Position numbers and translations under genes: made by a program. DNA of 57,858 nt from a virus, in the IMG/VR virus record IMGVR_UViG_3300021197_001472, positions 1 to 57,858 of that record; one strand, written 5' to 3'. The notes under the pieces were generated by a model that was not told the origin of the DNA, searched no databases, and was given only the letters and a program-made list of their open reading frames with translations. Positions 1 through 43,371 of the stretch are shown here, in pieces (the stretch's first letter is position 1; the number at the start of each line of letters is the position of its first letter).

Positions 1-14
1 TCAGCTTGTTTCAT
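1..14 (-). CDS. 5' end of a 79-aa gene that continues at the right edge
   Basis: Reading leftward, ATG begins at 14 and overlaps the TGA of the 198-aa gene before it (ATGA at 14-11). The four codons here give MKQA plus the bases GA. The right edge of the window supplies one more A and then an open frame to a stop at 57633, so the joined product is 79 aa and starts MKQAEGGWEWRVLKTYKHS. Its function is not recognised. The junction is the main evidence that the window is a closed genome. Confidence 0.75.
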
Positions 15-607
15 CGTACGCTCTCCTCTTTTCCGTAGTAGTGGACAGTGAACGTATGTTGAGAGTCTGAATACTTTGTGGGTCGTCCGAAGTTATTGAA
101 CGTGCCGAACTTCTTGGCGTCGTCGAACAGTGCGCTTATGAAAGCCTCGTCCACATCCCGTAATTCGTATCCCACATGTTCCCCACTTTCGGGATCGACC
201 TTGAAGAAGTAGTAATCTATGAGGTTGCCACGCCTACCTACCTCGAACGCAATCTTGTTGATGCCATCAGGCAACCCATGACATGGCCACTGACATTTGA
301 GGAAGTCAATCTTGTCCTTCCATACCTCAATACGATGAGCCTCTGAATGTTCTGGCAGTACATACGAGAAGATGTCTTCGAGTAAATTGGTTGCAAGCTC
401 TAGCTTGGCCAACGCATTAACGTCGGTTTCGTTATCCATGTTGACTAGCTTCTGCCTCAACTCTGGGTTACTGAGAAAATCCCCAAGCGAGACATGGTTG
501 TAGGAGAATTTAAATAGTTGGCTCAACTCCCCCTTGAAAGTAAGGCTCATACGTGGCCCGTCGCTAGTACGAAGTGGGCGTTGAACTACTTTAGTTTCGT
601 TTATCAT
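11..607 (-). CDS. hypothetical protein, 198 aa
   Basis: I do not recognise a family. The start at 607 (MINETKVVQRPL) is chosen because its ATG overlaps the TGA of the upstream gene (ATGA at 607-604); a longer reading to 640 would run into that gene. The protein is mixed in composition, soluble-looking and without membrane segments, with several aromatic residues near the C-terminus (HTFTVHYYGKEE). It is the penultimate gene of the leftward early operon and its own stop is coupled to the gene that crosses the window junction. Conservation in other phages would be the only route to a function. Confidence 0.75.
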   Translation of the reverse strand: MINETKVVQRPLRTSDGPRMSLTFKGELSQLFKFSYNHVSLGDFLSNPELRQKLVNMDNETDVNALAKLELATNLLEDIFSYVLPEHSEAHRIEVWKDKIDFLKCQWPCHGLPDGINKIAFEVGRRGNLIDYYFFKVDPESGEHVGYELRDVDEAFISALFDDAKKFGTFNNFGRPTKYSDSQHTFTVHYYGKEESVR

Positions 608-963
608 ATGTCGTCTCCAATTCTTGGTAAGTTTCTGCATTCAGCACGGCCTCGCTGTTCAACATCCTCGATGATCTGTTCGAGGGGTGTGACAGTGATG
701 TTGTCCCAACGCTTCTTGAATTTGTATGCGTCGCAATCCTCTTCGAGATACACATACCGCTCATCGTGGAAAGAGAAGCTGCTGAAATCACTAGGCTTCA
801 TACTCATGCGTTCAAGCATGTCCTTCGGTACACGTATCCATCCATGGCCTGAGTCGCTGATGAACAACAACTTGCTATGGTGTTTCATAATCCTAGCCTT
901 CATCACGTCGACGTAGCCAAGCTCGTCCATTAACTTTTCTGCGTATGTAAATTCGTTTGTCAT
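604..963 (-). CDS. hypothetical protein, 119 aa
   Basis: Family not recognised. The ATG at 963 is preceded by the recurrent leader AAAGGAAACACCAC, which also sets the start of several other genes here. The product is a small acidic soluble protein (MTNEFTYAEKLMDELGYVDV...) with no membrane segment or metal motif. Its stop overlaps the start of the next gene by four bases, so the two are probably translated together. Position in the leftward block of small proteins suggests an early, host-directed or accessory role; this is inference only. Confidence 0.75.
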   Translation of the reverse strand: MTNEFTYAEKLMDELGYVDVMKARIMKHHSKLLFISDSGHGWIRVPKDMLERMSMKPSDFSSFSFHDERYVYLEEDCDAYKFKKRWDNITVTPLEQIIEDVEQRGRAECRNLPRIGDDI

Positions 964-982
964 GTGGTGTTTCCTTTCTAAG

Positions 983-1291
983 TTAAGCGTTTAATTTCTC
1001 TACCTCTTCGTCTGTCCAGCAGTCAGGACACACAACCTCAGTGGTCGGAAGCCCTTCCTTGCATGTGGCTTCGACTTCGAAGATTTCGTACTCAAGGGTG
1101 AGTTCTCCGCACCGCCAACAATCAATCATCTGGCACTCAGCACATTGGTATCCGTGGCGAAGCTGACCTTCTGCGAAGACTTCGGTTTCTGTGTCAGTCG
1201 TGCAAGAGATACGATCGACAAACTTGTCGCTACCCCACGACGTGTCTTCGCCGCAAAAGCAACAACGATCTCCGATCTCTAATGTTTTCAT
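983..1291 (-). CDS. small zinc-ribbon protein, 102 aa
   Basis: The protein carries several Cys pairs: CCFCGEDT near residue 9, CAEC and CWRC around residues 50-61, and CPDCW near the C-terminus. This fits two zinc-binding knuckles. The rest is acidic. The start at 1291 follows GAAAGGAAACACC, a shortened copy of the common leader. Such proteins usually bind nucleic acid or protein partners, but no specific function can be read here. It lies in the early operon between the methyltransferase-like gene and the 119-aa gene. Confidence 0.75.
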   Translation of the reverse strand: MKTLEIGDRCCFCGEDTSWGSDKFVDRISCTTDTETEVFAEGQLRHGYQCAECQMIDCWRCGELTLEYEIFEVEATCKEGLPTTEVVCPDCWTDEEVEKLNA

Positions 1292-1303
1292 GGTGTTTCC
1301 TTT

Positions 1304-1966
1304 CTAGTGTACGAGTTCGCCCCATTGTTCAGCCATTGCTTCTGCAAAGGCGGGGAAGAAACGGCTTCGATCTTCTGATCTTGTCGGACTAGGTGGAGCT
1401 AAGTGGATGTCTTGCCGAGCCGTTGTTCCATCGAGAGTGCCAGTCGGCACTAACGTTGGTAAGTTCTGCAACCATAGACAGGTCTTCTTACTCACATTGT
1501 CTGGCCCGTCTTCGTCGTGGCCAAACTCCCATGGGTTTACGATCTGTTCATACTTGCGGAAATTTCTGATGCGTTCCTTCGCTCTCCAGTGCATGATCGG
1601 GTTCTCGACACAGATCATTGGAACATCTGCATTGAGTAGATCACCGAACAACTCGCAACCTTCGTCGAGTTCTCGCATAACATCCTCGTGTGTCATACCA
1701 CTGGGTGGATCTTCTGGCTTGAACCACCGGACACCGGAGTTGCAAAGCCTAGTGCATGGTGGATGGCAAACGATGAGCATGTCGAAGTGTTGTGTCGCTA
1801 ACATGTCACGCACGTCACACTGGAAATGTCGATTGGTTGGTACTTCTGAGGGCAACAAGTCACAACTGAATGCGTTGTGCCCACGTCGAACAAAGGCATC
1901 GCGTACCATACCAGATTTCTCACAACCAATCAGTATATCTTTCGGGTTATCCGTTTGCTGGAACAT
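1304..1966 (-). CDS. DNA cytosine methyltransferase-like protein, 220 aa
   Basis: The N-terminus DILIGCEKSGMVRDAFVRRGHNAFSCDLLPSE resembles motif I and the acidic loop of Rossmann-fold C5 methyltransferases. CHPPCTRLCNSG matches the PPC motif with its catalytic Cys, and CVENP resembles the ENV motif. The C-terminal SRFFPAFAEAMAEQWG is a common ending in phage members of this group. At 220 aa it lacks a clear target-recognition domain, so methylation may be weak, altered or absent. The start at 1966 has AGGAG at good spacing; a longer frame to 2215 would overlap two other genes. It may protect phage DNA from host restriction (inference). Confidence 0.8.
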   Translation of the reverse strand: MFQQTDNPKDILIGCEKSGMVRDAFVRRGHNAFSCDLLPSEVPTNRHFQCDVRDMLATQHFDMLIVCHPPCTRLCNSGVRWFKPEDPPSGMTHEDVMRELDEGCELFGDLLNADVPMICVENPIMHWRAKERIRNFRKYEQIVNPWEFGHDEDGPDNVSKKTCLWLQNLPTLVPTGTLDGTTARQDIHLAPPSPTRSEDRSRFFPAFAEAMAEQWGELVH

Positions 1967-1976
1967 TGTCAGTCTC

Positions 1977-2264
1977 CTAGTTATTGAGGTTGCCGAGCTT
2001 GTACTCACCGCTCTTGATTTTCTTGCGTGTCTCTGCGATACCTTCGTTGAGAAACTCATTTCGATACTTGCTTGTCGTTCTTGAGTAATCCCAGTAATGC
2101 TCATCGAGCATGACCTCGCCAGACCATGTCTTGATTGCGATCTTTTGTCCGTAGGACACAAAGCATTCGCCATTAGCGAGGTGCAAAACCATCTGGTTAG
2201 CAACTGGCTTACCACTACGAGGACTCCGCATGGGTTCGAATTTCAATGCTGTCGTCGACCTCAT
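1977..2264 (-). CDS. hypothetical protein, 95 aa
   Basis: Family not recognised. The start at 2264 (MRSTTALKFEPMRSP) is chosen because it overlaps the TGA of the upstream gene as ATGA; the reading frame itself opens slightly earlier. The protein is basic and contains VLHLANGECFVSYGQKIAIKTW, which looks like a small beta-rich fold. It sits directly before the methyltransferase-like gene, 10 bases away, so the two are likely co-translated. Confidence 0.7.
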   Translation of the reverse strand: MRSTTALKFEPMRSPRSGKPVANQMVLHLANGECFVSYGQKIAIKTWSGEVMLDEHYWDYSRTTSKYRNEFLNEGIAETRKKIKSGEYKLGNLNN

Positions 2265-2650
2265 GCCGCTACCTCCACGGTACACAGAAACTGGTCGAAG
2301 ACATTGTCCTCTTCCTTCTGTGCAGTCTGATCGACCAACCAGTAAGCATCGACCTCATCACCGTACTTGTCGAAGTAATGTGCGAACTCGTCAGTCGGAT
2401 ACGACGGTGCAATCGTGGGATAATGGTTATCACGACAAGGCTTAGAGCAGTCGTGGGTATCGACTTCAGCGACGTGGTCGATTTCTATGAGGTTTTCGGT
2501 GATGGTATGACGTATGTGTTCGTTCAATTCGCATCCCATGATTGCGTTATTCCCTACCTCTTCCATCGATGTATCTACTGGAACCATGATGTCGATTTCG
2601 TCTATGACTACGGCTCTGACGTAGAGTGAAACTTGCTTGTATTTCTGCAT
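2261..2650 (-). CDS. hypothetical protein, 129 aa
   Basis: Family not recognised. It starts at 2650 after TAGGAGAAAGTC and ends in a four-base overlap with the next gene. It is acidic (many Asp/Glu, e.g. DEIDIMVPVDTSMEEV, AQKEEDNVFDQF) with a HDC...C-containing middle (THDCSKPCRDNHYPT). No membrane segments. A small acidic early phage protein could bind a host factor, but nothing in the sequence proves this. Confidence 0.7.
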   Translation of the reverse strand: MQKYKQVSLYVRAVVIDEIDIMVPVDTSMEEVGNNAIMGCELNEHIRHTITENLIEIDHVAEVDTHDCSKPCRDNHYPTIAPSYPTDEFAHYFDKYGDEVDAYWLVDQTAQKEEDNVFDQFLCTVEVAA

Positions 2651-2659
2651 GACTTTCTC

Positions 2660-2896
2660 CTAGCTATGGGTGTAACCGTCAGGCTCAATGCCCAACCACA
2701 TGTTCCCTACGAAGGGAACCATTAAAGTTTCGTAATCGTAGTCCCGTGCTTCACCAACCAAACCTTGGACGGAGCCGAGGAACTCTCTATATCCTGGCTT
2801 AGTAAATCGATCGTCTGCCGACTGGATTCTCTGGAAGACTCGCTTGAGAGCGTGTCGTTGTGCTTGTGTAACTTTCAAGCCGTTTATGTTGGGCAT
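2660..2896 (-). CDS. hypothetical protein, 78 aa
   Basis: Family not recognised. It starts at 2896 with AAGGA about seven bases upstream. The N-terminal half is basic and probably helical (KVTQAQRHALKRVFQRIQSADDRFTKPGYREFLGSVQ). The ribosome site comes immediately after the U-run of a strong terminator hairpin (2919-2945), so the gene lies downstream of an attenuator-like element rather than in simple continuity with 3023-3331. Confidence 0.7.
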   Translation of the reverse strand: MPNINGLKVTQAQRHALKRVFQRIQSADDRFTKPGYREFLGSVQGLVGEARDYDYETLMVPFVGNMWLGIEPDGYTHS

Positions 2897-2918
2897 AGTA
2901 AAATCCTTCTAAAAAAAA

Positions 2919-2945
2919 AGCGGCTCCCAAAAAAAGGGAACCGCT
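2919..2945 (-). terminator. intrinsic terminator in the early leftward operon
   Basis: A 10-bp stem (one G-U pair on the minus strand), a 7-base loop of T residues and a following run of T residues (minus strand) form a textbook Rho-independent terminator. It lies between genes 3023-3331 and 2660-2896, ending right at the ribosome site of the latter. Together with leader repeat copy A just upstream it could make a short RNA or act as an attenuator. Confidence 0.85.
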
Positions 2946-2980
2946 ATAGGTTTTTGGAGAAACAATTTGGAGAAGAAAAT

Positions 2981-3013
2981 TCTCAGCGAACTATCTCTAA
3001 AGAGAAAAGAAAG
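2981..3013 (-). repeat. leader element copy A (diverged)
   Basis: On the minus strand this reads TTTTCTCTTTAGAGATAGTT followed by CGCTGAG. It matches the element seen three more times in the operon, whose core is CTTTAGAGATATTTCGGTGA and which holds the small hairpin CTCTTTAGAG. This copy is the most diverged and lies between a gene end (3023) and the terminator at 2919-2945. Confidence 0.6.
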
Positions 3014-3022
3014 GCGCGTATC

Positions 3023-3331
3023 CTACGTGGGATATACCCACCCACAAGGATGGCCAGTCTGATCAAACTTTGGGAGAGGTTCTCGTCGAACATCGGGGAT
3101 TTCTTCGGCAATCCAATTCACGTATTCGTCGTCAACGTGGGAGAAGTTGTCGTCAGTGTTTAACCAGTCCCGTGCCCCATCTGAGTCCGAATATCCATTG
3201 AGCATATTCTCTATCTCGTTATCAGTAGCTGATGCGTGGACTACTATCTCTGTTTCAAAGACGCAGGTTTTCACTTGCGTTACTATGATTTTCTTTAGTG
3301 GTGTTTCAAAGCTGTCTCGTTCGTTCCACAT
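3023..3331 (-). CDS. hypothetical acidic protein, 102 aa
   Basis: Family not recognised. It starts at 3331 with AAAGGGA upstream. The C-terminal part is acidic and rich in Asp, Asn and Trp (NGYSDSDGARDWLNTDDNFSHVDDEYVNWIAEEIPDVRREPLPKF), while the N-terminus looks like a beta strand pair (KKIIVTQVKTCVFETEIVVHA). It lies just downstream of the hyper-palindromic block, whose hairpin density does not continue into it. Confidence 0.7.
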   Translation of the reverse strand: MWNERDSFETPLKKIIVTQVKTCVFETEIVVHASATDNEIENMLNGYSDSDGARDWLNTDDNFSHVDDEYVNWIAEEIPDVRREPLPKFDQTGHPCGWVYPT

Positions 3332-3413
3332 GTGTCGTTATCCCTTTCATGCGTCGTTAACCGCCCTACACAAATAGGACGAGGGGAAAAATTTGAAATA
3401 AAAGAAAAAAGAA

Positions 3414-3432
3414 AGTCTCCATTATGGAGACT
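3414..3432 (-). terminator. terminator hairpin containing a stop codon in its loop
   Basis: On the minus strand AGTCTCCA-TAA-TGGAGACT is followed by TTTCTTTTTTC: an 8-bp stem, 3-base loop and U-rich tail. The three loop bases are the TAA stop of the 55-aa gene 3422-3589, so terminator and stop codon are one element. Confidence 0.8.
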
Positions 3433-3589
3433 CCCCAAATTCAACCATCGCTAGGGATATATCCCTAGCGACTATGAAGCCGTGTTCTCGACCTGTAAGG
3501 TCGAACTCTTTGGCCACTCTTTCTTGAGCTTCTAAGCTCAAGCCATGCCATCTATCGGCAATGCTTGTTCGAGCTATTACATAGCTCAT
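3422..3589 (-). CDS. small protein, 55 aa, in the hairpin block
   Basis: Frame from ATG at 3589 to TAA at 3422-3424, product MSYVIARTSIADRWHGLSLE...FGESP. The start is preceded by GAGGGA and lies two bases after the TGA of the upstream gene, so coupling is likely. The coding sequence contains four or five perfect hairpins (3449-3470, 3488-3504, 3524-3541, 3571-3587) and its stop is the loop of a terminator. No family recognised; the composition is that of a normal soluble protein (WHGLSLEAQERVAKEFDLTG), which argues that it is real. Confidence 0.65.
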   Translation of the reverse strand: MSYVIARTSIADRWHGLSLEAQERVAKEFDLTGREHGFIVARDISLAMVEFGESP

Positions 3590-3591
3590 GG

Positions 3592-3765
3592 TCAGTCCCT
3601 CCCCTCATGTGTGAATGGCCGCTCAAGCACGTCCTCGCCGTGTATGTGCTTGGCCGCAAGCGCAAGGAGCTTGTAAAGCTCCAAGAGGGTGAAACTGACT
3701 GCTGTACCTAGTACAGCAATACACCCTAGCATAGCTAGGGTACGGAAAATCTCTGCTTCAAACAT
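3592..3765 (-). CDS. small membrane protein, 57 aa
   Basis: Start at 3765 (MFEAEIFRTLAMLGCIAVLGT) chosen for GGAG seven bases upstream; the frame opens earlier but without a site. One transmembrane segment is clear (about residues 8-32, LAMLGCIAVLGTAVSFTLLELYKLLAL), followed by a polar tail. The ATG itself lies at the apex of a 6/3 hairpin (3758-3772), just after the terminator at 3784-3806. Function unknown; small early membrane proteins in phages can act in exclusion or host takeover, which is only a possibility here. Confidence 0.65.
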   Translation of the reverse strand: MFEAEIFRTLAMLGCIAVLGTAVSFTLLELYKLLALAAKHIHGEDVLERPFTHEGRD

Positions 3766-3783
3766 AGTTTGACTCCATAAAAA

Positions 3784-3806
3784 AAGGGGTCTCAAAGAGA
3801 CCCCTT
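3784..3806 (-). terminator. terminator hairpin enclosing the stop of the 48-aa gene
   Basis: A perfect 10-bp stem with a 3-base loop, followed on the minus strand by seven T residues. The TGA of the small gene 3792-3938 reaches the loop. The U-run ends about ten bases before the ribosome site of gene 3592-3765, the same geometry as the terminator at 2919-2945. Confidence 0.85.
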
Positions 3807-3938
3807 GTGGTTGTTAACAAAATCTACAATCCTTTGGATTGTAACCCTGACCATTGGATGGTCAGAGCCAAAGCAAGCCCAGTGGACAAGCTCTTTACAG
3901 AGCTTATCCAGAGCTTGGTTCCTAGGAACCAAGAGCAT
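3792..3938 (-). CDS. small protein, 48 aa, in the hairpin block
   Basis: Frame from ATG at 3938 to TGA at 3792: MLLVPRNQALDKLCKELVHW...VDFVNNHKGSL. The start overlaps the end of the upstream 155-aa gene by 17 bases. No strong ribosome site is seen, so translation would rely on coupling. The helical pattern (ALDKLCKELVHWA, RVTIQRIVDFVNNH) looks protein-like. The frame holds hairpins at 3825-3843, 3847-3865 and 3888-3905 and ends in a terminator apex. It may alternatively be an untranslated structured spacer. Confidence 0.5.
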   Translation of the reverse strand: MLLVPRNQALDKLCKELVHWACFGSDHPMVRVTIQRIVDFVNNHKGSL

Positions 3939-4389
3939 CAAGCTTTGCTTGAATGGTAGCTACCGACTTGGCAGCATACTTCTTCTGCTTTGCAGAAGTA
4001 GTCGGCTTATTTAGCTTCGCTAAATTAAGAGCCAAACCTTTCTCAAGGTTTGCTTGCTTGGTAGTAGCTTTACTAGCTACTACTTGGTCGACAGTAGCTT
4101 TAGCTACTGCTTTCTTGGTCTTCCTCTTCGTTGGAGCTTTAGCTCCATCGAGAGTTGTCTTCGACAAGTTTACAAGATCTTCGATCTTGGCAGGTCGAAC
4201 ATTGTTGTCGATCTTGGCAGTAGCCAAGTCGACTAGAACAGTGTCTGGAGACACTGCAACTGCAAAGCGTTTAGCTTTGCTGTAGTTGACAAAAATCTCA
4301 TTTTTGTCGTTGATAAATACAATTCTCTTCGAGAATTTAGCGTCGTTTTTTCCGTTTACGGAAAGATTTACTTGTACTGTATTCAGCAT
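3922..4389 (-). CDS. hypothetical basic protein, 155 aa, in the hairpin block
   Basis: The start is ATG 4389 (MLNTVQVNLSVNGKND); GGAGA lies at the apex of hairpin 4392-4408, nine bases upstream. The first 70 residues look beta-rich (VNLSVNGK, RIVFINDKNEIFVNY, RFAVAVSPDTVLVDL). The last 80 are Lys/Ala-rich and helical (APTKRKTKKAVAKATVDQVVASKATTKQANLEKG), like a histone-like or nucleic-acid-binding tail. At least ten perfect hairpins run through the gene in varying codon phase. The stop TAG sits at the exact centre of a 20-bp palindrome (3914-3933). No family recognised. Confidence 0.75.
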   Translation of the reverse strand: MLNTVQVNLSVNGKNDAKFSKRIVFINDKNEIFVNYSKAKRFAVAVSPDTVLVDLATAKIDNNVRPAKIEDLVNLSKTTLDGAKAPTKRKTKKAVAKATVDQVVASKATTKQANLEKGLALNLAKLNKPTTSAKQKKYAAKSVATIQAKLDALGS

Positions 4390-4432
4390 GATTTGATCTC
4401 CGATCAAAGTTTTTGGTTGATTTGGCGAAATG

Positions 4433-4461
4433 CCACTGAAATATCCCTAAAGGGAAGAAGG
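4433..4461 (-). repeat. leader element copy B
   Basis: Minus strand CTTCTTCCCTTTAGGGATAT followed by TTCAGTGG. It lies 44-72 bases before the ATG of gene 3922-4389. The apical hairpin has kept its pairing although its bases changed (CCCTTTAGGG here, CTCTTTAGAG in copies C and D). That compensatory change suggests the structure matters. Confidence 0.7.
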
Positions 4462-4479
4462 GGTTTCAAATGAAACCCC
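4460..4479 (-). terminator. hairpin with stop codon at apex, U-rich tail
   Basis: An 8-bp stem with a 4-base loop; on the minus strand it is followed by TTCTTCCCTTT. The TGA of gene 4466-4735 lies at the stem/loop border. It may be a weak terminator or a transcript-end protector just before leader copy B. Confidence 0.6.
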
Positions 4480-4735
4480 TGAGACACGCTACGACTTCGT
4501 CGTAGAGTTTGTTCCAATCTTCGATGCCTTTGGCATCGTCCATCAGAGCTATAGCTCTGGGGGCAAGATCGAAACCAATCGGCAATCTCTTCTCTAGAGA
4601 GAAGAGATTAGTGACAATAAACAATTGTTTATTGTCGATGCCAATTCCGTCGAACCGACCGTCGAAGGTCTGAAGACCTTCAATACTAGCAATTTGCATT
4701 GCTAGTTTACGATCAAGCTTTGCTTGATTAGTCAT
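4466..4735 (-). CDS. hypothetical protein, 89 aa, in the hairpin block
   Basis: Start at 4735 with AAAGGA eight bases upstream. Product MTNQAKLDRKLAMQIASIEG...KLYDEVVACLRGFI, a soluble alpha/beta-looking protein with no recognised family. The gene contains many perfect hairpins (4489-4505, 4522-4538, others near 4550, 4600, 4615, 4670, 4710). Leader copy C lies 50 bases upstream. The stop codon falls in hairpin 4460-4479. Confidence 0.7.
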   Translation of the reverse strand: MTNQAKLDRKLAMQIASIEGLQTFDGRFDGIGIDNKQLFIVTNLFSLEKRLPIGFDLAPRAIALMDDAKGIEDWNKLYDEVVACLRGFI

Positions 4736-4782
4736 CGTTTTTCCTTTCGAAGAAAGTAAAGTCCAAACCGAGGTGATTTGGA

Positions 4783-4811
4783 GTCACCGAAATATCTCTA
4801 AAGAGAGTGAA
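4783..4811 (-). repeat. leader element copy C
   Basis: Minus strand CACTCTCTTTAGAGATATTT followed by CGGTGAC. It lies about 50 bases upstream of the start of gene 4466-4735 and just after the stop of gene 4820-5065. It is nearly identical to copy D over 20 bases. Confidence 0.75.
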
Positions 4812-4819
4812 GCTTCGCT

Positions 4820-5065
4820 TCACATCATGTGTGTGAGGTCTTCGACCTCTGCGAGAAGTCCAATGTCAAAATCATGTTTTAAGTGAAACTTAAAACTTGG
4901 TTTGTGAACTTGCTCTTTAACCAGACTGTAAGTCTGGTCGGAAGTCAGTATGCCTTCGGCATACTGGTTAATGAGTCCTCTTAGGACTCTTGCTTCTTTC
5001 TTTGTGAGTACAAAGTACTCACAGAACTCCGTAACCAAATCTTCGATTTGTTTTTGTATTTCCAT
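4820..5065 (-). CDS. hypothetical protein, 81 aa, in the hairpin block
   Basis: Start ATG 5065 (MEIQKQIEDLVTEFCEYFVLT) has AAAGGA nine bases upstream; the open frame extends further but would overlap leader copy D and the divergent gene. The product is mainly helical, ending LLAEVEDLTHMM. Coding hairpins include 4876-4896, 4921-4937, 4946-4966, 4973-4989 and 5004-5022. The stop lies in the arm of hairpin 4807-4823. First gene of the leftward early operon by position. Family unknown. Confidence 0.7.
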   Translation of the reverse strand: MEIQKQIEDLVTEFCEYFVLTKKEARVLRGLINQYAEGILTSDQTYSLVKEQVHKPSFKFHLKHDFDIGLLAEVEDLTHMM

Positions 5066-5097
5066 GGTCTTCGTTCCTTTCAGAGTCGACGAAATTG

Positions 5098-5127
5098 TCA
5101 CCGAAATATCTCTAAAGAGAAGAAAGC
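5098..5127 (-). repeat. leader element copy D, divergent region
   Basis: Minus strand CTTCTCTTTAGAGATATTTC followed by GGTGA. It lies 33 bases upstream of the first leftward gene (4820-5065) in the interval between leftward and rightward genes, where an early promoter or operator is expected. No clear sigma70 -35/-10 pair accompanies it. Confidence 0.7.
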
Positions 5128-5186
5128 GTACGCAATGCGGAAAGAACGGGACGACCAGTACTTCGTACTGGATTAATTTATTGTTT

Positions 5187-5567
5187 ATGAACAATAAAGC
5201 ACTGGAAAAAGCATCGAAGATAGCTTCGCTATCTCCGAGAGAGATTTCGAAGATTCGTTCTGACATAGTCAGAACGGTTTCTCGATTTACTGGAGACGTC
5301 GAAGACGTTTTAGAGGGAAAAAAGCGTTGGACTAACGTCCAATTTGGCCTGTATAAAACCTTGTTAAACAAGGTTTGCCCAGACATTTCCTCAACTTACG
5401 TTGAGACTTCCCCCAATGGCTCTTCGGCTCGTCTCTCTGGACTTTCCAGAGAGGAACTCGAAGAGATGGTTCGACAAAGAAAAGAGAACATCTCTAATGA
5501 TGATGGGGATTCCCTAGGGAATCTGGGGGTTTCTGCCGATGTCATTGAAAACAATGACAAAAATTAG
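5187..5567 (+). CDS. possible terminase small subunit, 126 aa
   Basis: Start ATG 5187 (MNNKALEKASKIASLSPREISKIRSDIV) sits in the 4-base loop of a perfect 9-bp hairpin (5177-5198), with no clear Shine-Dalgarno. The N-terminal helices, a middle segment KRWTNVQFGLYKTLLNKVCPDISST and a C-terminal LSREELEEMVRQRKE recall small-terminase-like phage proteins. The gene lies upstream of TerL in the same direction, which supports this, but the similarity is only by eye. At least eight perfect hairpins lie inside the gene. Alternative: an unknown early protein. Confidence 0.55.
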   Translation: MNNKALEKASKIASLSPREISKIRSDIVRTVSRFTGDVEDVLEGKKRWTNVQFGLYKTLLNKVCPDISSTYVETSPNGSSARLSGLSREELEEMVRQRKENISNDDGDSLGNLGVSADVIENNDKN

Positions 5568-5689
5568 ACATCTTTTCATGCTCTGTTACACAGAGCATGG
5601 GGGGGCGGTCTATGTAAAACCCCCATGGCCCCGCGCGACGGTGACCTCCCCTAGCGGGGTGGGGGTACTATCATAAAAAGGAAATCACT

Positions 5690-5959
5690 ATGGGCGAAGT
5701 TGTTAAGCTATCTGTTCACAGAAACACATTACAGAAACGTCAGCGCAAAATTACGCGCAACTCTTTAGTTGCTACTGCCAAGCAAGTGCAAAGACATAGC
5801 AAAATAGATGGCTACGCCCTTGTCACATTTACAATCACTGACCATGGAACGGTTGAACACAAAGTTCACTACGATGTCCCTACGGCATCTTTCGCTTACG
5901 TGCTTCCTCAGATGGCACAACAAGCTTTGTTCGCGTCAATCATAGGGGAGAATGATTAA
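5690..5959 (+). CDS. hypothetical protein, 89 aa
   Basis: Starts MGEVVKLSVHRNTLQKRQRKI with AAAGGA upstream; its stop overlaps the next start as TAATG. The N-terminus is strongly basic, then a beta-like stretch (DGYALVTFTITDHGTVEHKVHYDV). It precedes the 85-aa gene and TerL, so a packaging or DNA-binding role is possible. The upstream gap 5568-5689 holds one large hairpin (5577-5599) and C/G-rich inverted repeats around 5598-5660. Confidence 0.65.
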   Translation: MGEVVKLSVHRNTLQKRQRKITRNSLVATAKQVQRHSKIDGYALVTFTITDHGTVEHKVHYDVPTASFAYVLPQMAQQALFASIIGEND

Positions 5960-6216
5960 TGAAAATAATCAACAAAGAAGCTGATCGCATACAGTCCGAA
6001 TGCACCCCAGAAGAACTAGGTCGTGCCCTTCAAGGTTTAGACCTCGAATCAATTCCTCCCCACAAGAAGTGGGAAGCCGTACGCGATCGTCTAAACGAAG
6101 TCATGTTGGCCACTACGACTGACCCCCATGAACGCGCCAAGGAACTCTTCCAGAAAGCGGCCACTACATACGGCACCCTTAGACGCAATGCCAGAAAGAC
6201 AAACCTCATCATATGA
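5959..6216 (+). CDS. hypothetical protein just upstream of TerL, 85 aa
   Basis: A helical, charged protein (MKIINKEADRIQSECTPEEL...ATTYGTLRRNARKTNLII). It overlaps the gene before it (TAATG) and TerL after it (ATGA), so it is translated in step with the terminase. Its position makes it a second candidate for the small terminase subunit, though it is short for that role and no HTH is obvious. Confidence 0.65.
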   Translation: MKIINKEADRIQSECTPEELGRALQGLDLESIPPHKKWEAVRDRLNEVMLATTTDPHERAKELFQKAATTYGTLRRNARKTNLII

Positions 6217-7853
6217 GCAAGAACCAGAATGCTCCCGAAACCGGACAGTTAATCTCAGAGATGACTGACGCAGATCTGGCTGATCTGCTTCTACAGGTAC
6301 GTGCCGCCGAAGAGGGGTTCGAAGGATTCGTTCGCTTGCTCCATCCCGAATGGGAAATCCCTTCCTACCAGCTAGAGTTCATCGATCTGCTAGACAAGCT
6401 GGAACGACGTGAGCTTCTGAACAAGAAAGGACAGCCTGTCCACAATCTTCTCGTGAACATGCCCCCTCGCCATAACAAATCCACACTGGCCACGAAGCTA
6501 TTCCCTGCTTACTGCATTGCCCGTGCCCCGTGGACAAAGATACTCGTATCATCTGCATCAAAAGACCTGGCTGAATCTTTCGGCGCGGAGACCCGTGCCT
6601 ATCTCACAAGTCCAAACACAAAGCTGGCTTATCCCGATTCTGGTATATCTAAAAAAACTACAGCAAAAGCAGACTGGCTCACCGATCTTGGTGGCCAATA
6701 CCTCGCGCTTGGCCAATCGGGTAACACAATCGGACGACCAGCCAATCTCCTCATCCTCGATGACCCATATCCAAACAGGCAAGCCGCCGAATCCCCTACT
6801 CAACGTCGTGCTATATGGTCGTTCTGGAACTCAGCCCTCTGGAGAAGACGCGAACCTGACCGCGATAACCGCCAACCAATCACAATTGTCATCCATACCC
6901 GCTGGCACCCTGCCGATATCACAGGCACTATCCTCGATGGCGAGGATTTCAAGGAGGGGTTCTGGCATCACGTATCCTATACTGCCATCAATAAAAAGAA
7001 ACTGACCGGACGCCTACCTATACGTCTAGCATTGTGGCCCGAACGGTTCCCAATTGACTGGCTTGAACGCGAAGAACGTGCAGACCCCCGTGAGTTTGCA
7101 TCCCAGTACCAACAGATGCCATACATTGAAGGGGGCAATCTCATACGCGGTTCATGGTGGGGCAACTTCGACCAAAACGCTGAACACATGCCGTCAATGA
7201 CTCAGGTAATCATAGGCGTAGACGGGGCATTCAAAAAGTCTGACCTCGCCGACTACTCGGTTGCTCTTGTTGCTGGCCTTGCCCAAGATGGTGACATCTA
7301 CATCCTAGACGTCATGCGGGAACGCCTAGACTTCCCCGAATTGAAACGCGCATTAATCCGTCTCAACAACCAGTGGAGAGGTCGCGGCCTCAGAGCAATG
7401 TACATAGAAGACAAAGCATCTGGCCAACCAGCCCTGCAAGAACTCAAACACCATTCTGGCCTATCTGTAATCCCTTACAAAGTTGTCAACGACAAAGTTT
7501 CCCGCGTTAGCGCAGTGACTCCCCTCATAGAAGGCGGCAGGGTTCTTCTTCCCACAAACGCCCCTTGGCTTGAAGCCTTCATCAAAGAGACTGAACAGTT
7601 CCCCAATGGCTCACACGATGATCAAGTAGACGCACTATCCATAGTCCTAGACATCCTCGCCCGTACACCACTTCATAATGCAGCCGATTTTTCTTTGGAC
7701 GCAATGGGCGCGGAGGACAGTCTACTCAAACAAATACAGTCTCACCGCCAGTACACGGACGATCCTTTCAACACTACTAACGGAATAGACCGCCGATCTG
7801 CTTCCACTAAACTCTTCTCCCGATCCGATTATTCAGCCGCGCTAGGTGAATAG
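6213..7853 (+). CDS. terL: terminase large subunit, 546 aa
   Basis: DNA-packaging motor ATPase and nuclease. The Walker A-like motif NMPPRHNKST is at residues 82-91 and Walker B LLILDD at 179-184. The RNase H-fold nuclease has IIGVDGAF (Asp337), YIEDKASG (about 398-405) and HDDQVDAL (Asp470/473). Length and order are normal for the family. It starts in an ATGA overlap with the preceding gene. The TAG stop is part of the recurrent TAGGGACGAC motif. It acts at the portal to fill the capsid; a headful mechanism would fit the closed map but cannot be read directly. Confidence 0.95.
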   Translation: MSKNQNAPETGQLISEMTDADLADLLLQVRAAEEGFEGFVRLLHPEWEIPSYQLEFIDLLDKLERRELLNKKGQPVHNLLVNMPPRHNKSTLATKLFPAYCIARAPWTKILVSSASKDLAESFGAETRAYLTSPNTKLAYPDSGISKKTTAKADWLTDLGGQYLALGQSGNTIGRPANLLILDDPYPNRQAAESPTQRRAIWSFWNSALWRRREPDRDNRQPITIVIHTRWHPADITGTILDGEDFKEGFWHHVSYTAINKKKLTGRLPIRLALWPERFPIDWLEREERADPREFASQYQQMPYIEGGNLIRGSWWGNFDQNAEHMPSMTQVIIGVDGAFKKSDLADYSVALVAGLAQDGDIYILDVMRERLDFPELKRALIRLNNQWRGRGLRAMYIEDKASGQPALQELKHHSGLSVIPYKVVNDKVSRVSAVTPLIEGGRVLLPTNAPWLEAFIKETEQFPNGSHDDQVDALSIVLDILARTPLHNAADFSLDAMGAEDSLLKQIQSHRQYTDDPFNTTNGIDRRSASTKLFSRSDYSAALGE

Positions 7854-7860
7854 GGACGAC
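7851..7860 (+). repeat. TAGGGACGAC motif after terL
   Basis: The motif overlaps the terL stop and is followed by ACTTACCTCAAAAG. Similar ACCTCA/CTCTCA tails follow the copies at 31425 and 18779. Role unknown; see the finding on GGGACGAC. Confidence 0.6.
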
Positions 7861-7889
7861 ACTTACCTCAAAAGAAAGACAATCGTGCC

Positions 7890-9812
7890 ATGGTAGAGCT
7901 TACATCCCCCACTGCTTCAGCGCACATTCCAGACGACGGTATCATCGTTGATCTGTCTATGTATGCGAACAAGCTTATGCAGAACGAAGACATCTCGATG
8001 GATCTAACAGACGATCAGAACAATCGTCTCGTCGAGTACATTCGCGAAATAGAGCGCATGTCCTACTCCCGTATCTCCCGAAGATACGACCATTGGAAAC
8101 TAGCTGACCGTGCCCACGACGTTTATGTCCCTGCCGACGCTACTCGTTTCCGCGAGAAAGCAGTCATCGCTGACACCCGTGCCATAGCAGACACAGTCCT
8201 AACCTACTTGATGGCCGCACTAGGCGGTCGTAACCCAATGTTCCAACTCGAAGGTCTCAATCGTAAATCCCGTAAAGCCGCCGCTATTCTAGAACAGGTA
8301 CTCCATCAGCAAATGCGTAGAACCGCTGGCGAGGCACGACTATCCCAACATCTCCTTGACTGCATCCGTTATGGATTCGCACCCACCAAAGTAACATGGG
8401 ATGCCAAAACCAATTCTAACCAGATAGCAAACTTCGACCCACGTCGCGTCTTTCCCGACCCTCGCGTCCAGTGGGGAGATTGGGAAAACATGCAGTACTG
8501 TGTCTTCACAAGCACAGGCTCCTACGACGCCCTCGTCCAAACTGGCCTTTACCCTAAGCTAAAGTCCGACAAAAAATACCGCTACAAAATGACGTCCGAT
8601 CAACAGGCATGGGAAGCGCACAGGTGGCATCAAGAAGAAGGTCGCGGCCTGTCTATAGACCCGCTCCAACCCAACGAAAGATCAACTGGCCGTTCCAACT
8701 CTAGCTTCTTCTCCCTAGGAAACAGCCGCATAATCGACGAGGCATGGATCAAACTGGCGGGATACCAAGTTAATCTGCCAAACGTAGACTCAATCTGGAT
8801 GCTCGTCACAATAATCGACGAGAGCTTGGTCATACGCTGTCATCTCAACCCATATGGCCGACAGTTCCCCGTTGTTATTGGCGGTTTATTCCACGATAGC
8901 CACAAGACATACGCTCAATCACTGTATGATCTACTTCTACCCCTACATGACATAGCAACATGGCTCCTACGTTCCCGCATCGACAACGTACAGGCCGCAA
9001 TGAACAATCTCATCTTCGTTGACCCCACGAAAGTAGCCGTGAGCGACCTCATCGACCGCAATCCATGGGGCATAGTAAGGTCAATGCCTGGACAAAATCC
9101 AGGTGATGGAGTTTTCATTGCGAATGTTCCCGATATAACGCGAGGACATTGGCAAGACATAGGCGCGTTGTCTGAAATGAAACAACGCCTTTCAGCCGCG
9201 TCAGACGCGCAACAGGGAATGCCAAGCCAAGGCTCTGATAGGACGACCGCCTATGAAGTACAAAGATTAACCCAACTAGGATCACAACGCCTTGGCGTTT
9301 TATCCCGCATAATATCTGCCACATCCATCCGACCACTCGTGCGAATGTCCGTTGAAAACATCCAAGACAGTCTCGCATACAATGGCTCCATCCGAATGAG
9401 CGCAGATAACGCCAGCGAAACCCTAGCCCCCATGATCGAGGAAGGTTACCTAGACTACGACGCGGAAGCCCTACAAGGAGACATCGAGTATCTCGTCGTA
9501 GATGGCACCCTCCCGATCGAACCCAGCCGCTCCCCACAATCATGGCTGAACGCAGTCCAAATAGCATCCCAAGCTGGGCTTGGTATGGAACTCGACCTCA
9601 AGTCCATGACACTAGAAGCTGTTCGCTCGATGGGTATATCCGACATAGACAGGTTCCGAATCCCACCCGAACAACTACAGCGTGATGGCCCCTCTCCATC
9701 TCAGCAAATGGAACTCATGGAAAAAGCGAGAGGTGCGTCTGTCCAGCCCCAAGAACAGATCGACCGCGAACTTGAAAAGGGAAACATCATACCCATGCGA
9801 GGACAGCAATGA
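7890..9812 (+). CDS. portal protein, 640 aa
   Basis: Forms the dodecameric head-tail connector. The sequence has the long helical portal pattern: an N-terminal RFREKAVIADTRAIADTVLTYLMAALGG region, then the FDPRRVFPDPRVQWGDWENMQYCVF segment typical of podovirus-type portals, and a C-terminal hydrophilic tail (QQMELMEKARGASVQPQEQIDRELEKGN). It directly follows TerL and is coupled by ATGA to the next gene. Exact family assignment would need a profile search, but size, position and pattern agree. Confidence 0.88.
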   Translation: MVELTSPTASAHIPDDGIIVDLSMYANKLMQNEDISMDLTDDQNNRLVEYIREIERMSYSRISRRYDHWKLADRAHDVYVPADATRFREKAVIADTRAIADTVLTYLMAALGGRNPMFQLEGLNRKSRKAAAILEQVLHQQMRRTAGEARLSQHLLDCIRYGFAPTKVTWDAKTNSNQIANFDPRRVFPDPRVQWGDWENMQYCVFTSTGSYDALVQTGLYPKLKSDKKYRYKMTSDQQAWEAHRWHQEEGRGLSIDPLQPNERSTGRSNSSFFSLGNSRIIDEAWIKLAGYQVNLPNVDSIWMLVTIIDESLVIRCHLNPYGRQFPVVIGGLFHDSHKTYAQSLYDLLLPLHDIATWLLRSRIDNVQAAMNNLIFVDPTKVAVSDLIDRNPWGIVRSMPGQNPGDGVFIANVPDITRGHWQDIGALSEMKQRLSAASDAQQGMPSQGSDRTTAYEVQRLTQLGSQRLGVLSRIISATSIRPLVRMSVENIQDSLAYNGSIRMSADNASETLAPMIEEGYLDYDAEALQGDIEYLVVDGTLPIEPSRSPQSWLNAVQIASQAGLGMELDLKSMTLEAVRSMGISDIDRFRIPPEQLQRDGPSPSQQMELMEKARGASVQPQEQIDRELEKGNIIPMRGQQ

Positions 9813-10087
9813 GCAAAAAAGTCGAAGAGGCATTAGCCTCATCAATTCCCCCGAAGGTCAGGGAATACATTAAGTCAATCATCGACCCTGCTCTCAAAGA
9901 AATGGATACCCGCATACGACAGCAAGCGGAGTACATGAAAGAGACACGAAGGATAATGCAGGGGGAAGCGTCCAGTTCCAAAGCACGAATAACCAACATG
10001 GAACGTATGCTTGACCTTCAGCCAAAATCCAGAGCGATGATGCAACAGCTTATCGCACATTTTAATGAGGACGACACTAACAGCTAA
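9809..10087 (+). CDS. small coiled-coil protein after portal, 92 aa
   Basis: Starts in ATGA overlap with the portal gene. The product is almost entirely helical and charged (KVREYIKSIIDPALKEMDTRIRQQAEYMKETRRIMQG). No family recognised. Translation coupled to portal suggests a head-assembly or connector-associated role (inference). Confidence 0.7.
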   Translation: MSKKVEEALASSIPPKVREYIKSIIDPALKEMDTRIRQQAEYMKETRRIMQGEASSSKARITNMERMLDLQPKSRAMMQQLIAHFNEDDTNS

Positions 10088-10104
10088 AGCGGATACCAAA
10101 ACGT

Positions 10105-11604
10105 ATGGCAATTACGCGACCCACTGGCGATCAATTACGATTCAACTCTTCGGTAAACGGGGAGATAATTCTTGACGCCTATCTAGAATCCGCAGAGATG
10201 GGTGGCCGTACGCTTGGCGACCTCATGGCAGACATCTTTGATAGCTCTGGCGAGTACCGCTCAGACCTATTTCAATTCCGAGAAGACCCCTCAAATGTAG
10301 GCCATTTTCAAGTTCGTGTGGGGAGCTTCACAGATCCAAACGCTGGCTGGGTAACAATAACATTCACGAACTTTGCTTCCTATGTAGCAGACGCCCTTTC
10401 CTACAAGAACGATGCAGAGACTGCCAAGACCGCCGCCGAAACAGCGGCTAATGCCGTAGCCCCTATAACTTCTGCACTACCAGCCATCAACACCAACGCA
10501 ACAAATATAAACGACATCAACACAGTCGCTTCCCAAGCTTCGGGCACCATAAGCATTGTACCCACAGTTGCTTCCAGTAATTTTGTTATAGACGGTACAG
10601 CCAACAAAGCCCTCACAATGAAGAGAGGCTACATATATTCGTTCGACGTTTCGGACTCTAGCCATACAGGTCAAATACTGGCCTTCTCTTCCACAACAGA
10701 TGGAACCCACACAGGCGGGGGCACAGAGTTCACAGGAAACGTCACTCGAACGGGAACTCCTGGTCAGACAAATGCCAAGGTTGAAATCTTAATCAACGAC
10801 AGCAACCCAACTGCATTTTTCTACTACAATCAAACAGCATCAGGATACGGCGGGAACATCACCGTCAAAGACCACAACCTAGAGACACTCGCTAATATCT
10901 CTGGCAAGATCACAACCACTGCCGATACGGTTGCCCCCTCAATCGATGACATTGTTGCCGTCGCAAATGCCCTGTCAACAATAGCCAATGTAGCCGCTCA
11001 ACTAACCCCTATAGGAAATGTAAACACAAGCCTCACAGATGTAACTAATGTAGCAAATGCAATTCCAAACATCACTACACTGGCTCAGTCCTCAAACATT
11101 ACAGCCGTAAACAATGTCAGTGGTGCGCTAACTCAAATTGGAAACGTCAATACAAATCTTGCCGCAATCAACAATGTATCTTCCAATACCGGAGACATAA
11201 CCACACTAGCAAACGGAACAAATCTCGCTTCAATCGGAACCGTGGCTTCCGGCATCGCAAGCGTTAATTCCGTAGCTGGCAATCTCACCGCAGTGATTAA
11301 TGCCGCCGCAGACGCAATCCTGTATGCAGTCAATCCGCAAAACCAACAATTCACAGACAGCGCGGGAACAACAGCATTCTCAGCACTCCACTACGCAAAC
11401 ATGGCCGCTGGTGCTGGCCAAGCATTCACATCAATGGTCGGAGATGAAAGAACCACCGGAGACGTTACCGACATCGTGGCAGATGCTGGAACCGACACAC
11501 TCACATTCAGAGGGCTTGGTGGAGCCAAGATCCGAACAGACGCAACCAACGATGACATTTACATCGACAGCCGTGCGGTCGCTATGGCCGTAGCATTGGG
11601 GTAA
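10105..11604 (+). CDS. tail fibre-like protein, 499 aa
   Basis: The first 90 residues (GGRTLGDLMADIFDSSGEYR...FQVRVGSFTDPNAGWVTITF) match the N-terminus of the fibre at 23368-24924, so this is probably a shared virion anchor. Residues about 155-250 resemble the cupredoxin-like domain of marine phage fibres (RGYIYSFDVSDSSHTGQILAFSS, GTPGQTNAKVEI, FFYYNQTASGYGG), but the usual Cys/His/Met ligands are missing. The C-terminal half repeats IGNVNTNLAAINNVSSN-like units, which form beta-helical or coiled fibre shafts. Likely a receptor-contacting fibre. Confidence 0.8.
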   Translation: MAITRPTGDQLRFNSSVNGEIILDAYLESAEMGGRTLGDLMADIFDSSGEYRSDLFQFREDPSNVGHFQVRVGSFTDPNAGWVTITFTNFASYVADALSYKNDAETAKTAAETAANAVAPITSALPAINTNATNINDINTVASQASGTISIVPTVASSNFVIDGTANKALTMKRGYIYSFDVSDSSHTGQILAFSSTTDGTHTGGGTEFTGNVTRTGTPGQTNAKVEILINDSNPTAFFYYNQTASGYGGNITVKDHNLETLANISGKITTTADTVAPSIDDIVAVANALSTIANVAAQLTPIGNVNTSLTDVTNVANAIPNITTLAQSSNITAVNNVSGALTQIGNVNTNLAAINNVSSNTGDITTLANGTNLASIGTVASGIASVNSVAGNLTAVINAAADAILYAVNPQNQQFTDSAGTTAFSALHYANMAAGAGQAFTSMVGDERTTGDVTDIVADAGTDTLTFRGLGGAKIRTDATNDDIYIDSRAVAMAVALG

Positions 11605-11607
11605 ACC

Positions 11608-11940
11608 ATGCCAGCATATGAGTTTAAGAACCAGACATCTAACGCCATAGGCACTACAGCCGTGGACGTTTACACCGTACCCTCAGCCAAGAAATCCATT
11701 CTGATCGGCTGCTCTGTGACAAACACAACTGGGGCATCTCTCCCCATTGAAGTGAAGCTGATCAAAGCTGACAATACAGAGATACATCTATCTGTTTCTG
11801 AACAAGTGAAAGGCGGGACGACGCGAGATTTCTTGAGTGGTAAAAAGTTGGTTATGACTGCTGGAGAAAAAATAAACGTAAAGAGCAAAGTCGCGTCATC
11901 ACTCGACGCGGTCATCTCTATTCTGGAGGACGTTGATTAA
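11608..11940 (+). CDS. small beta-rich virion-type protein, 110 aa
   Basis: A single beta-sandwich-like domain (SAKKSILIGCSVTNTTGASLPIEVKLIKADNTEIHL...KINVKSKVASSLDAVISILEDVD), the pattern of small virion or tail-associated proteins found beside fibres. It lies three bases after the fibre gene and overlaps the next start as TAATG. A fibre chaperone or decoration role is possible. Confidence 0.7.
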   Translation: MPAYEFKNQTSNAIGTTAVDVYTVPSAKKSILIGCSVTNTTGASLPIEVKLIKADNTEIHLSVSEQVKGGTTRDFLSGKKLVMTAGEKINVKSKVASSLDAVISILEDVD

Positions 11941-12182
11941 TGTCTACCATAACCATGAATGCTCTACCGCCAAACAACGACTACCAAGGTCTTACCTTTT
12001 ATGGATTCAAACTAGGTACGAATGGAAATCTTGACGTTGAACTAATCAATGACGGAAGCCTGATTAAAATTCCTGATCCCGACAATCAGTCTTCCGCTGA
12101 TTACAAGCATTACATGTGGACTGAAGATACGCTGACCTTTTCGTGGGGAACCAACGGACATCTGAAAATGGAGATACTATGA
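11940..12182 (+). CDS. hypothetical small protein of fibre cluster, 80 aa
   Basis: Product MSTITMNALPPNNDYQGLTFYGFKLG..., acidic and rich in aromatic residues. It overlaps both neighbours (TAATG before, ATGA after). Family unknown; the context implies a tail-fibre accessory protein. Confidence 0.65.
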   Translation: MSTITMNALPPNNDYQGLTFYGFKLGTNGNLDVELINDGSLIKIPDPDNQSSADYKHYMWTEDTLTFSWGTNGHLKMEIL

Positions 12183-14911: not shown

Positions 14912-14912
14912 C

Positions 14913-43142: not shown

Positions 43143-43371
43143 CTAACTCCTCCGCTTTCTTGATTATAAATTCCCGTTGCTTTTCTATTTCTTCTCTTCG
43201 TTTATTTTTTTCTCTACCGTTTGGCATACGCGCTACTTCTTTTGCTTGTTTCGAAAGCCGTATCCACAACGACCAGATGTCACCCTTCCGTTTGATGACT
43301 GCATCAGGCGGCTTGCCCAACCATCCCCATATCGCCCTCTCCTTTGCCCGTTCCCTTATGTCTTTGGCCAT
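43132..43371 (-). CDS. hypothetical basic helical protein, 79 aa
   Basis: MAKDIRERAKERAIWGWLGKPPDAVIKRKGDIWSLW... Rich in Lys, Arg and Glu. No recognised motif. It overlaps the exonuclease gene by 16 bases, so co-translation in the recombination operon is likely. Confidence 0.65.
   Translation of the reverse strand: MAKDIRERAKERAIWGWLGKPPDAVIKRKGDIWSLWIRLSKQAKEVARMPNGREKNKRREEIEKQREFIIKKAEELDGI

Follow-up and report, generated by a model that had tools for sequence, protein, structure and literature searches.

The record IMGVR_UViG_3300021197_001472 of a marine bacteriophage, analysed here over its full length of 57,858 nt (the window), carries between positions 3414 and 5599 a block of about 2.2 kb in which small protein genes are densely filled with perfect hairpins, and this hyper-palindromic block is confirmed as real. 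The hairpins look like the work of a DNA-level process, so far undescribed in viruses, that makes and maintains them. As their cause we favour fold-back template switching that recurs only within the first divergent early transcription units and would both create and perfect them; we propose it tentatively, at somewhat less than an even chance.

The block contains 46 perfect inverted repeats (arm of at least 7, loop 3-8), where 60 first-order shuffles gave 0.9 ± 1.1 with a maximum of 3; the first-pass annotation had counted more than 25 whose arms were at least 7 bp long, with about one expected by chance. The sharp edges that it described are equally borne out, with one repeat in positions 1-3413 (1.0 expected) and five in 5600-15000 (2.7 expected). 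Outside the block both the window virus and its block-carrying relatives are at or near background hairpin density. With arms of at least 6 and loops of 3-4 nt the block holds 55 non-overlapping hairpins that cover about half of its bases. The comparison with codon-shuffled controls that the annotation had called for gave the same answer: 32 hairpins are coding, as against 1.27 (maximum 5) after within-gene shuffling of synonymous codons and 0.28 after shuffling of codon order. Chance, codon usage and repeated peptides are thus ruled out by the Markov, synonymous-codon and codon-order shuffles. An assembly artefact is also ruled out, since the same kind of block, different in sequence, lies at the same genomic place in two independent assemblies, L008 (IMG/VR) and L131 (a GTDB contig); in each of the three viruses the hairpins are restricted to one block of about 2 kb. 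The arm sequences differ, which rules out a copied mobile repeat.

The block comprises the first two divergent early transcription units, adjoins the terminase genes, and its limits are the limits of the transcription units. Good support exists for six small genes, of which five point leftward and one rightward; of the at least seven that had been annotated, the seventh (3792-3941, minus strand, 49 aa, non-ATG start) is likely rather than certain, on the ground of protein-level conservation in L008. On the minus strand the left border (3414-3432) is a terminator-like hairpin followed by a T-rich tract, which ends the leftward unit; L008 and a further relative, L007, also have a hairpin there. 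It is followed by a 55-aa gene (3422-3589) with no homologue among the L008 and L007 ORFs, a gene for a 57-aa probable membrane protein with a hydrophobic stretch (3592-3765; homologues in L008 and L007), an intergenic intrinsic-terminator-like hairpin with T7 (3784-3806), and the gene for a 155-aa Ala/Lys-rich protein (3922-4389; homologues in L008 and L007). The 89-aa protein gene (4466-4735) has homologues in L008 (35%) and L007 (26%), and the 81-aa protein gene (4820-5065) shows a distant similarity to an L008 gene (23%). Between these leftward genes lie the minus-strand intergenic elements TCCCTTTAGGGATATTTC (4438-4455), a shared repeat ahead of early genes, and TCTCTTTAGAGATATTTC (4789-4806), the latter with a second minus-strand site at 5103-5120. 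This second site falls in the region where the leftward and rightward units start in opposite directions (5051-5154), the longest hairpin-free gap of the block (104 nt). The rightward 126-aa protein gene (5187-5567, plus strand) is the best conserved of the block, 70% identical to its L008 and 58% to its L007 counterpart, and contains 8 perfect hairpins. The right border hairpin catgctctgt TAC acagagcatg (5577-5599, plus strand) stands 3' of its stop codon, directly before a G-rich conserved site. The window virus also encodes a protein of 3164 aa, a PrimPol, an AAA protein (45051-45875) and a YqaJ-like protein (43356-44180).

The hairpins are uniform in shape. Arms measure 6-14 bp, and among hairpins with arms of at least 6 there are 34 loops of 3 nt, 22 of 4 nt, 2 of 5 nt and none of 6-8 nt; the typical form, annotated as a stem of 7-9 bp with a 3-base loop, is therefore better described by loops almost strictly of 3 or 4 nt. 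Arm identity is all-or-none: perfect 7-pair stems number 44 against 0.5 expected, whereas stems with five of seven pairs are near expectation (81 against 57). The high density that had been read as one repeat every 20-45 bases is upheld, but not as a regular spacing, since gaps between hairpins are Poisson-like (CV 0.98, null 0.98; mean 20 nt); regular spacing or coverage is thereby ruled out. Loops begin in differing codon phases, as had been noted, with all phases filled (codon positions 1/2/3: triloops 31/7/15, tetraloops 10/12/14, window virus and L008 together).

Selection for folded early mRNA, for example for ribonuclease resistance or translation control, had been offered as one cause. 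The coincidence of block and transcription-unit limits and the position of the longest hairpin-free gap at the start region would suit it, as would the GAA loops, which are found 16 times in the mRNA-sense strand against 4 for TTC, and the first unpaired position beyond the stems, which in mRNA sense is G.U in 28 cases and A.C in 15 (p = 0.07). Within the stems, however, G.U is as rare as A.C (4 and 6 among 248 cells at arm positions 6-7 from the loop). Single internal exceptions are neutral in type, with G.U in 4 of 24, where composition predicts 3.7 (P = 0.0008 for a half share of G.U), so that G.U is treated like any other mismatch and the tolerance of it that marks a transcribed strand was not found. 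Stem GC (0.43-0.45) equals that of the spacers (0.43-0.44) and of the background, and therefore thermal stability is not the quantity maximised; a bias is seen in the closing pair only (C-G in 64 of 109, T-A in 31 of 109). Loops of 5-8 nt, which RNA would tolerate, are absent except for the two of 5 nt, folding energy in 32-nt windows is only moderately lower (-5.7 against -3.8 kcal/mol), and the lack of Rfam families in L007 and L008 also counts against an RNA role. We consider selection on mRNA folding unlikely.

The rarity of G.U, which shows that both strands matter, would also agree with evasion of guide-based immunity: guides or spacers acquired from either strand of the DNA that enters first would be self-folding and poorly functional, and hairpins on both strands would thus be favoured. 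Folding energies below -4 kcal/mol on both strands are found for 59-63% of 32-nt windows in the block, compared with about 30% elsewhere; the block adjoins the terminase genes and the conserved G-rich site and includes the first of the early genes. Against this, placement is random rather than gap-free (CV 0.98; gaps of up to 104 nt), the stems are not stabilised by GC, and the physical genome end is itself presumptive, which makes guide evasion improbable, more so than a role in mRNA folding.

The relatives show how the hairpins change. Homologous block proteins of the window virus and L008 are 70-23% identical, and their genes are intact with perfect hairpins inside. In five gene pairs 8 of 37 aligned hairpin positions are shared (3.9 expected); outside the 126-aa gene the two have 3 in common where about 3.1 are expected, so that site-conserved regulatory hairpins are unsupported there. 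Hairpin positions turn over, yet density has persisted even where protein identity has dropped to 23-42%. The annotated observation that arms all differ and the shape is conserved thus holds over long divergence for density, and not for individual positions. Turnover is seen side by side with retention at 4584-4609, where the hairpin aatctcttctc TAGA gagaagagatt has the same arms in L008, and at 4613-4636, where gacaataaac AATT gtttattgtc is replaced in L008 by a different 14-bp hairpin beside the same neighbour. The hairpin ccagtac TTC gtactgg (5155-5171) corresponds in place to acggtatc TAAA gataccgt in L008, and L131 has the latter arms with the loop inverted to TTTA.

The compensatory arm changes proposed as a check were found. 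In stems shared by the window virus and L008, 54 pairs are unchanged, 11 are changed on both sides and none on one side. For most of the block L008 and L131 have an identity of about 99%, and between them one arm pair changed together from GGTATC/GATACC to GGCCTC/GAGGCC. Arm changes are thus paired in these comparisons, and conversion of one arm to match the other in a single event may lie behind them. In two hairpins the loop is exactly inverted between unchanged arms: GGTTGGC TTT GCCAACC in L008 has the loop AAA in L131, and ACGGTATC TAAA GATACCGT has the loop TTTA. These two, few as such events are, are the only loops with more than one substitution between unchanged arms. Strict complementarity, GC-neutral stems, loops of 3-4 nt, paired changes and loop inversions therefore argue against mRNA folding and for a DNA-level process.

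Template switching between the arms of inverted repeats leaves a published signature of homogenised arms and inverted spacers, and short spacers favour it (PMC8604942). On the mechanism that we favour, a nascent strand would fold back over a loop of 3-4 nt, use its own other arm as template over some 6-11 bases and then return to the original one, by which imperfect repeats would be perfected and the loop sometimes inverted. If it is only in the two first divergent early units, beside the terminase genes, that switching occurs or its products are tolerated, hairpins there would be random in position, turning over and dense. Transcription or local single-strandedness may focus it on the block; template-switch mutations can depend on high transcription (PMC3820800), which would suit block limits that match transcription units. 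Of the three causes first put forward, template switching that perfects palindromes is thus the best supported and folded mRNA is disfavoured. On the other side, template switching is not known at such density or in one 2-kb phage block, and the loop ceiling of 4 nt is tighter than in yeast, where inverted spacers measure 2-5 nt with arms of more than 9 bp (PMC8604942).

The main rival, cruciform DNA in the first-pass annotation, is selection for DNA hairpins as such, which would be extruded from supercoiled duplex or arise in single-stranded DNA, and of which the number would matter and the position would not; putative uses are titration of a host structured-DNA-binding protein or absorption of supercoiling at the divergent early promoters. 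Between L008 and L131 substitutions fall in 1 of 661 stem positions and in 15 of 1255 positions of loops and spacers (p = 0.016), a difference that pure mutational upkeep does not predict and selection does. The AT-rich tight loops (GC 0.23-0.27), closed by C-G or T-A over GC-neutral stems, suit extrusion, because this pattern is expected if hairpins compete with duplex, stem pairs then having no net cost and loops being costliest. The density kept by the window virus and L008 through protein divergence and moved positions also speaks for it. For cruciforms, however, 7-9 bp is a short arm length, close relatives live without the hairpins, and searches gave neither a hairpin-binding protein nor a Y1 transposase or reverse transcriptase. 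A cellular palindrome sensor, such as the Lamassu literature describes, would moreover turn the hairpins into a liability. Selection of this kind is possible, with a clearly smaller chance than template switching. Some selection for stem upkeep may add to template switching, and a dense array of minimal hairpins could be a device, for example a decoy or torsion sink in the first early region, in which the number of hairpins, and not their sequence or place, is selected and which switching renews; we hold this combined form to be doubtful to the same degree.

The relatives without hairpins, L007, L009 and L010, have homologous genes in the same order with almost no such hairpins, and their terminase is closer to that of the window virus than the L008 terminase is. 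L007 is a weak candidate for a decayed block, its excess of imperfect repeats being broad (z 3-5) over all loop sizes and not specific to 3-4 nt. L007 and L009 share the replication and recombination genes and are without a block, and therefore no trans-acting cause was identified; a search for a trans-acting gene unique to block carriers gave no clear candidate. Genes 1304 and 2660 of the window have matches in L008-type genomes and none in the L009 record, which is incomplete. No block beyond those of the window virus, L008 and L131 was found in 2.39 Mb (222 loci) of DNA that was almost all viral, and two shared hairpins used as DNA probes returned L008 as the sole block carrier, the two other loci of probe 1 lying outside the density scan. 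DNA similarity of the window to 50,697 phage records was nil. Among cultured phages the closest relative found was Roseobacter phage CRP-810.

Whatever the cause, these are natural protein genes about half of whose bases lie in perfect hairpins, at a density kept through deep protein divergence, and with a close hairpin-free natural control the cause is testable. Template switching, if true, would make these phages a comparative system in which a mutation process mostly met as rare, isolated events is local and very active, and they may then shed light on the coding palindromes of Nematomorpha, which are themselves unexplained. Selection, if true, would mean a novel use for minimal DNA hairpin arrays in early infection.

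Among known systems, promoters of the N4 virion RNA polymerase resemble the block in being short small-loop DNA hairpins of an early phage region. Early N4 promoters are short hairpins (PMC4496689), and hairpin promoters read by an injected polymerase might be suspected here because of the 3164-aa gene. N4 has a few promoters of conserved sequence, whereas the block has more than 50 unrelated sequences, mostly intragenic; an N4-type virion RNA polymerase was not found in the window, the 3164-aa protein matching no solved structure and no polymerase family, and the arms have no sequence in common, the hairpins being scattered at random within genes. This reading is very improbable. The hairpin at a diversity-generating retroelement target (PMC3240598) is likewise a hairpin- or cruciform-capable inverted repeat of a phage locus. 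There, however, it is a single structure beside a variable repeat and a reverse transcriptase; the window has none of these, reverse transcriptase PF00078 being absent from its record. REP/IS200-type hairpins are ruled out, since the arms are all different and the Y1 transposase PF01797 is absent. Rickettsia palindromic elements also lie within coding sequence and, in the accounts cited in PMC6649704, are copies of one mobile element with decaying arm identity; the arms of the block all differ and stay perfect. Quasipalindrome template switching in E. coli and yeast shares exact spacer inversion, short spacers and apparent arm homogenisation with the block (PMC7202029, PMC8604942, PMC3820800), and transcription dependence, seen in one yeast assay (PMC3820800), would be a further trait in common. 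Its events are scattered and single; a locus with tens of repeats side by side is not described in these papers. Closest as a precedent are the coding palindromes in Nematomorpha mtDNA (PMC6649704), for which active maintenance was favoured by the authors in 2019, with template switching as one candidate. Both systems have perfect inverted repeats inside protein genes, all-or-none arms and retained function, with gains and losses at different positions. In Nematomorpha, however, arms of 15-142 bp stand a mean of 37 bp apart and are spread over mitochondrial genes, whereas the phage hairpins, with arms of 6-14 bp and loops of 3-4 nt, reach a saturating density in one block.

Small perfect DNA hairpins crowd the early genes of the window, a 57.9-kb virus record whose genes include those for terminase, portal, integrase, Prim-Pol/helicase and CobS/CobT-like proteins and whose terminase places it nearest, among cultured phages, to Roseobacter phage CRP-810 (47%). 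With perfect arms no shorter than 7 bp and loops of 3-8 nt as criteria, the block at 3414-5599 contains 46 inverted repeats against a mean of 0.9 and a maximum of 3 in 60 shuffles; counts in the flanks (arms of at least 7 bp) are near expectation, with one repeat in 1-3413 and five in 5600-15000. If 6-bp arms are allowed and loops kept to 3-4 nt, 55 non-overlapping hairpins cover about half of the sequence. The first-pass annotation, which had described such a block, proposed codon-preserving shuffling and a search for equal density elsewhere as checks, and its description withstood both: coding hairpins number 32 against a mean of 1.27 when synonymous codons are shuffled within each gene and the proteins kept, and the other parts of the hairpin-bearing genomes lie at or near background. 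Across 2.39 Mb of fetched loci no further region exceeded 5 such hairpins per kb, compared with 20-23 per kb in the blocks.

The block comprises five small leftward genes, one rightward gene of 126 amino acids and probably one more ORF, an order that points to two divergent transcription units. Its limits are sharp: a terminator-like hairpin on the left, and on the right a hairpin that follows the rightward gene's stop codon. At 104 nt, the start region between the divergent units is the widest stretch of the block without a hairpin. The 18-bp element TCYCTTTAGRGATATTTC precedes early genes on the minus strand at 2988-3005, 4438-4455, 4789-4806 and 5103-5120 (four matches in the window, 0.15 expected) and is likely to be an early promoter or operator specific to the phage. 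A near-identical element precedes early genes of the L008-type phage outside the block, on a 49.8-kb contig, L099, at 423-439, 1626-1642 and 2504-2520; the corresponding gaps in the relative L007 hold another repeated element (around CTTTACAAGTAAAG). The leftward early operon of the L008-type phage encodes an ArdC-like anti-restriction protein with ArdcN and MPTase-PolyVal domains (L131 2663-3529, minus strand). Elsewhere in the window, a 3164-aa protein (31485-40979) has only a marginal PHROG hit and no Pfam or PDB-sequence match.

Such hairpins are known from just three sequences, two of which are close to each other. In L008, a metagenome contig assembled independently and with a terminase 83% identical to that of the window, the same kind of block occupies the same place. 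The contig L131, from a GTDB genome bin, has the L008 block with about 99% identity except in one patch. That patch (L008 786-980, L131 6601-6800; divergence about 12% or more) suggests a recombination event whose other partner was a third hairpin-bearing relative, so far unsampled. Two neighbouring small genes of L008 (1461-2095, versus L131 7195-7600) are apparently related to each other, and a deletion of some 340 bases (L008 1757-2095) has removed one of the pair from L131. By eye, the left end of L008 (1-53) agrees at some 51 of 53 bases with the reverse complement of L099 1-53. Both contigs come from one sample and are probably pieces of one genome whose assembly broke near the block.

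The relatives L007, L009 and L010 (terminases 87-88% identical to that of the window, block regions near-identical to each other) keep homologous genes in unchanged order, yet just six repeats (arms >=7 bp, loops 3-5 nt) are present there, and several of the six lie between genes. Phages of this type have no block and yet similar replication and recombination genes. The terminase places the window nearer to L007 than to L008, whereas block proteins do the reverse (identities to L008 and L007 of 70 and 58%, 42 and 23%, 35 and 26%, and 33 and 31%), and DNA similarity to L007 resumes at 5616, immediately past the block, which therefore behaves as an exchanged module. Beyond the right-limit hairpin lie a conserved G-rich site (GGGGGGCG ... 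TGACCTCCCCTAGC; window 5600-5675, L008 2650-2730, L007 2450-2525) and then the genes up to the large terminase. The site resembles a cos or packaging site and may also be a point of module exchange since DNA similarity to L007 begins there. The genome end, like the transcription units, is a prediction from sequence.

Hairpin loops are 3 or 4 nt long and almost never 5-8 nt, 95 of the 109 closing pairs are C-G or T-A, and GC content is equal in stems and spacers, with AT-rich loops. Pairing is strictly Watson-Crick: counting from the loop, 4 of the 248 cells at stem positions 6 and 7 are G.U and 6 are A.C, and in the 24 stems with a single internal exception G.U, A.C and other mismatches occur in the proportions expected from composition. 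Folded mRNA selected for stability, one of the origins first proposed, predicts acceptance of G.U, GC preference and tolerance of larger loops, none of which was observed; the sole RNA-like sign is a weak G.U excess just past the stem ends (28 versus 15, p = 0.07).

Hairpin placement is random (gap CV 0.98, equal to the random-placement value). The window and L008 have five hairpin positions in common in the well-conserved 126-aa gene (0.8 expected) and three in the remaining genes (about 3.1 expected), where density is nonetheless equal. Of the pairs in their shared stems, 54 are the same in both, 11 differ on both sides and none differs on one side alone, a zero that the perfect-stem definition itself imposes. 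Compensating paired changes in arms, which the first-pass annotation had proposed to look for, also distinguish L008 and L131, as do two exact loop inversions between unchanged arms (TTT/AAA and TAAA/TTTA), a small number. When DNA polymerase switches template between the arms of an inverted repeat, the published signs are spacer inversion and arm homogenisation, favoured by short spacers (PMC8604942); a yeast assay yielded such mutations only when transcription was high (PMC3820800). For these reasons we favour, as the most likely origin of the hairpins, recurrent fold-back template switching, an enzymatic process that would both create and repair them and, through a link to transcription, be concentrated on the early units. 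In the rest of the L008 and L131 blocks, substitutions affect 1 of 661 stem sites and 15 of 1255 sites elsewhere (p = 0.016), a low stem rate which hints that selection favours stems too and makes a selected array of DNA hairpins the main rival to template switching. Amino-acid identity of the 126-aa protein to L007 is the same in hairpins (29/52) and outside them (44/73).

No phage locus of this kind was found in the open-access literature, of which coverage was incomplete. Against that literature the sequence architecture of the block is new, and template switching, the favoured mechanism, is of a known kind at a local intensity that has not been described. Among described phenomena, the coding palindromes of Nematomorpha mitochondria (PMC6649704) come closest: like the block they show perfect arms, identity that is all or none, and turnover, but their arms are far longer, their spacing is wider and they are not confined to a block. 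By a membership test the block does not belong to that family, though the two may work alike.
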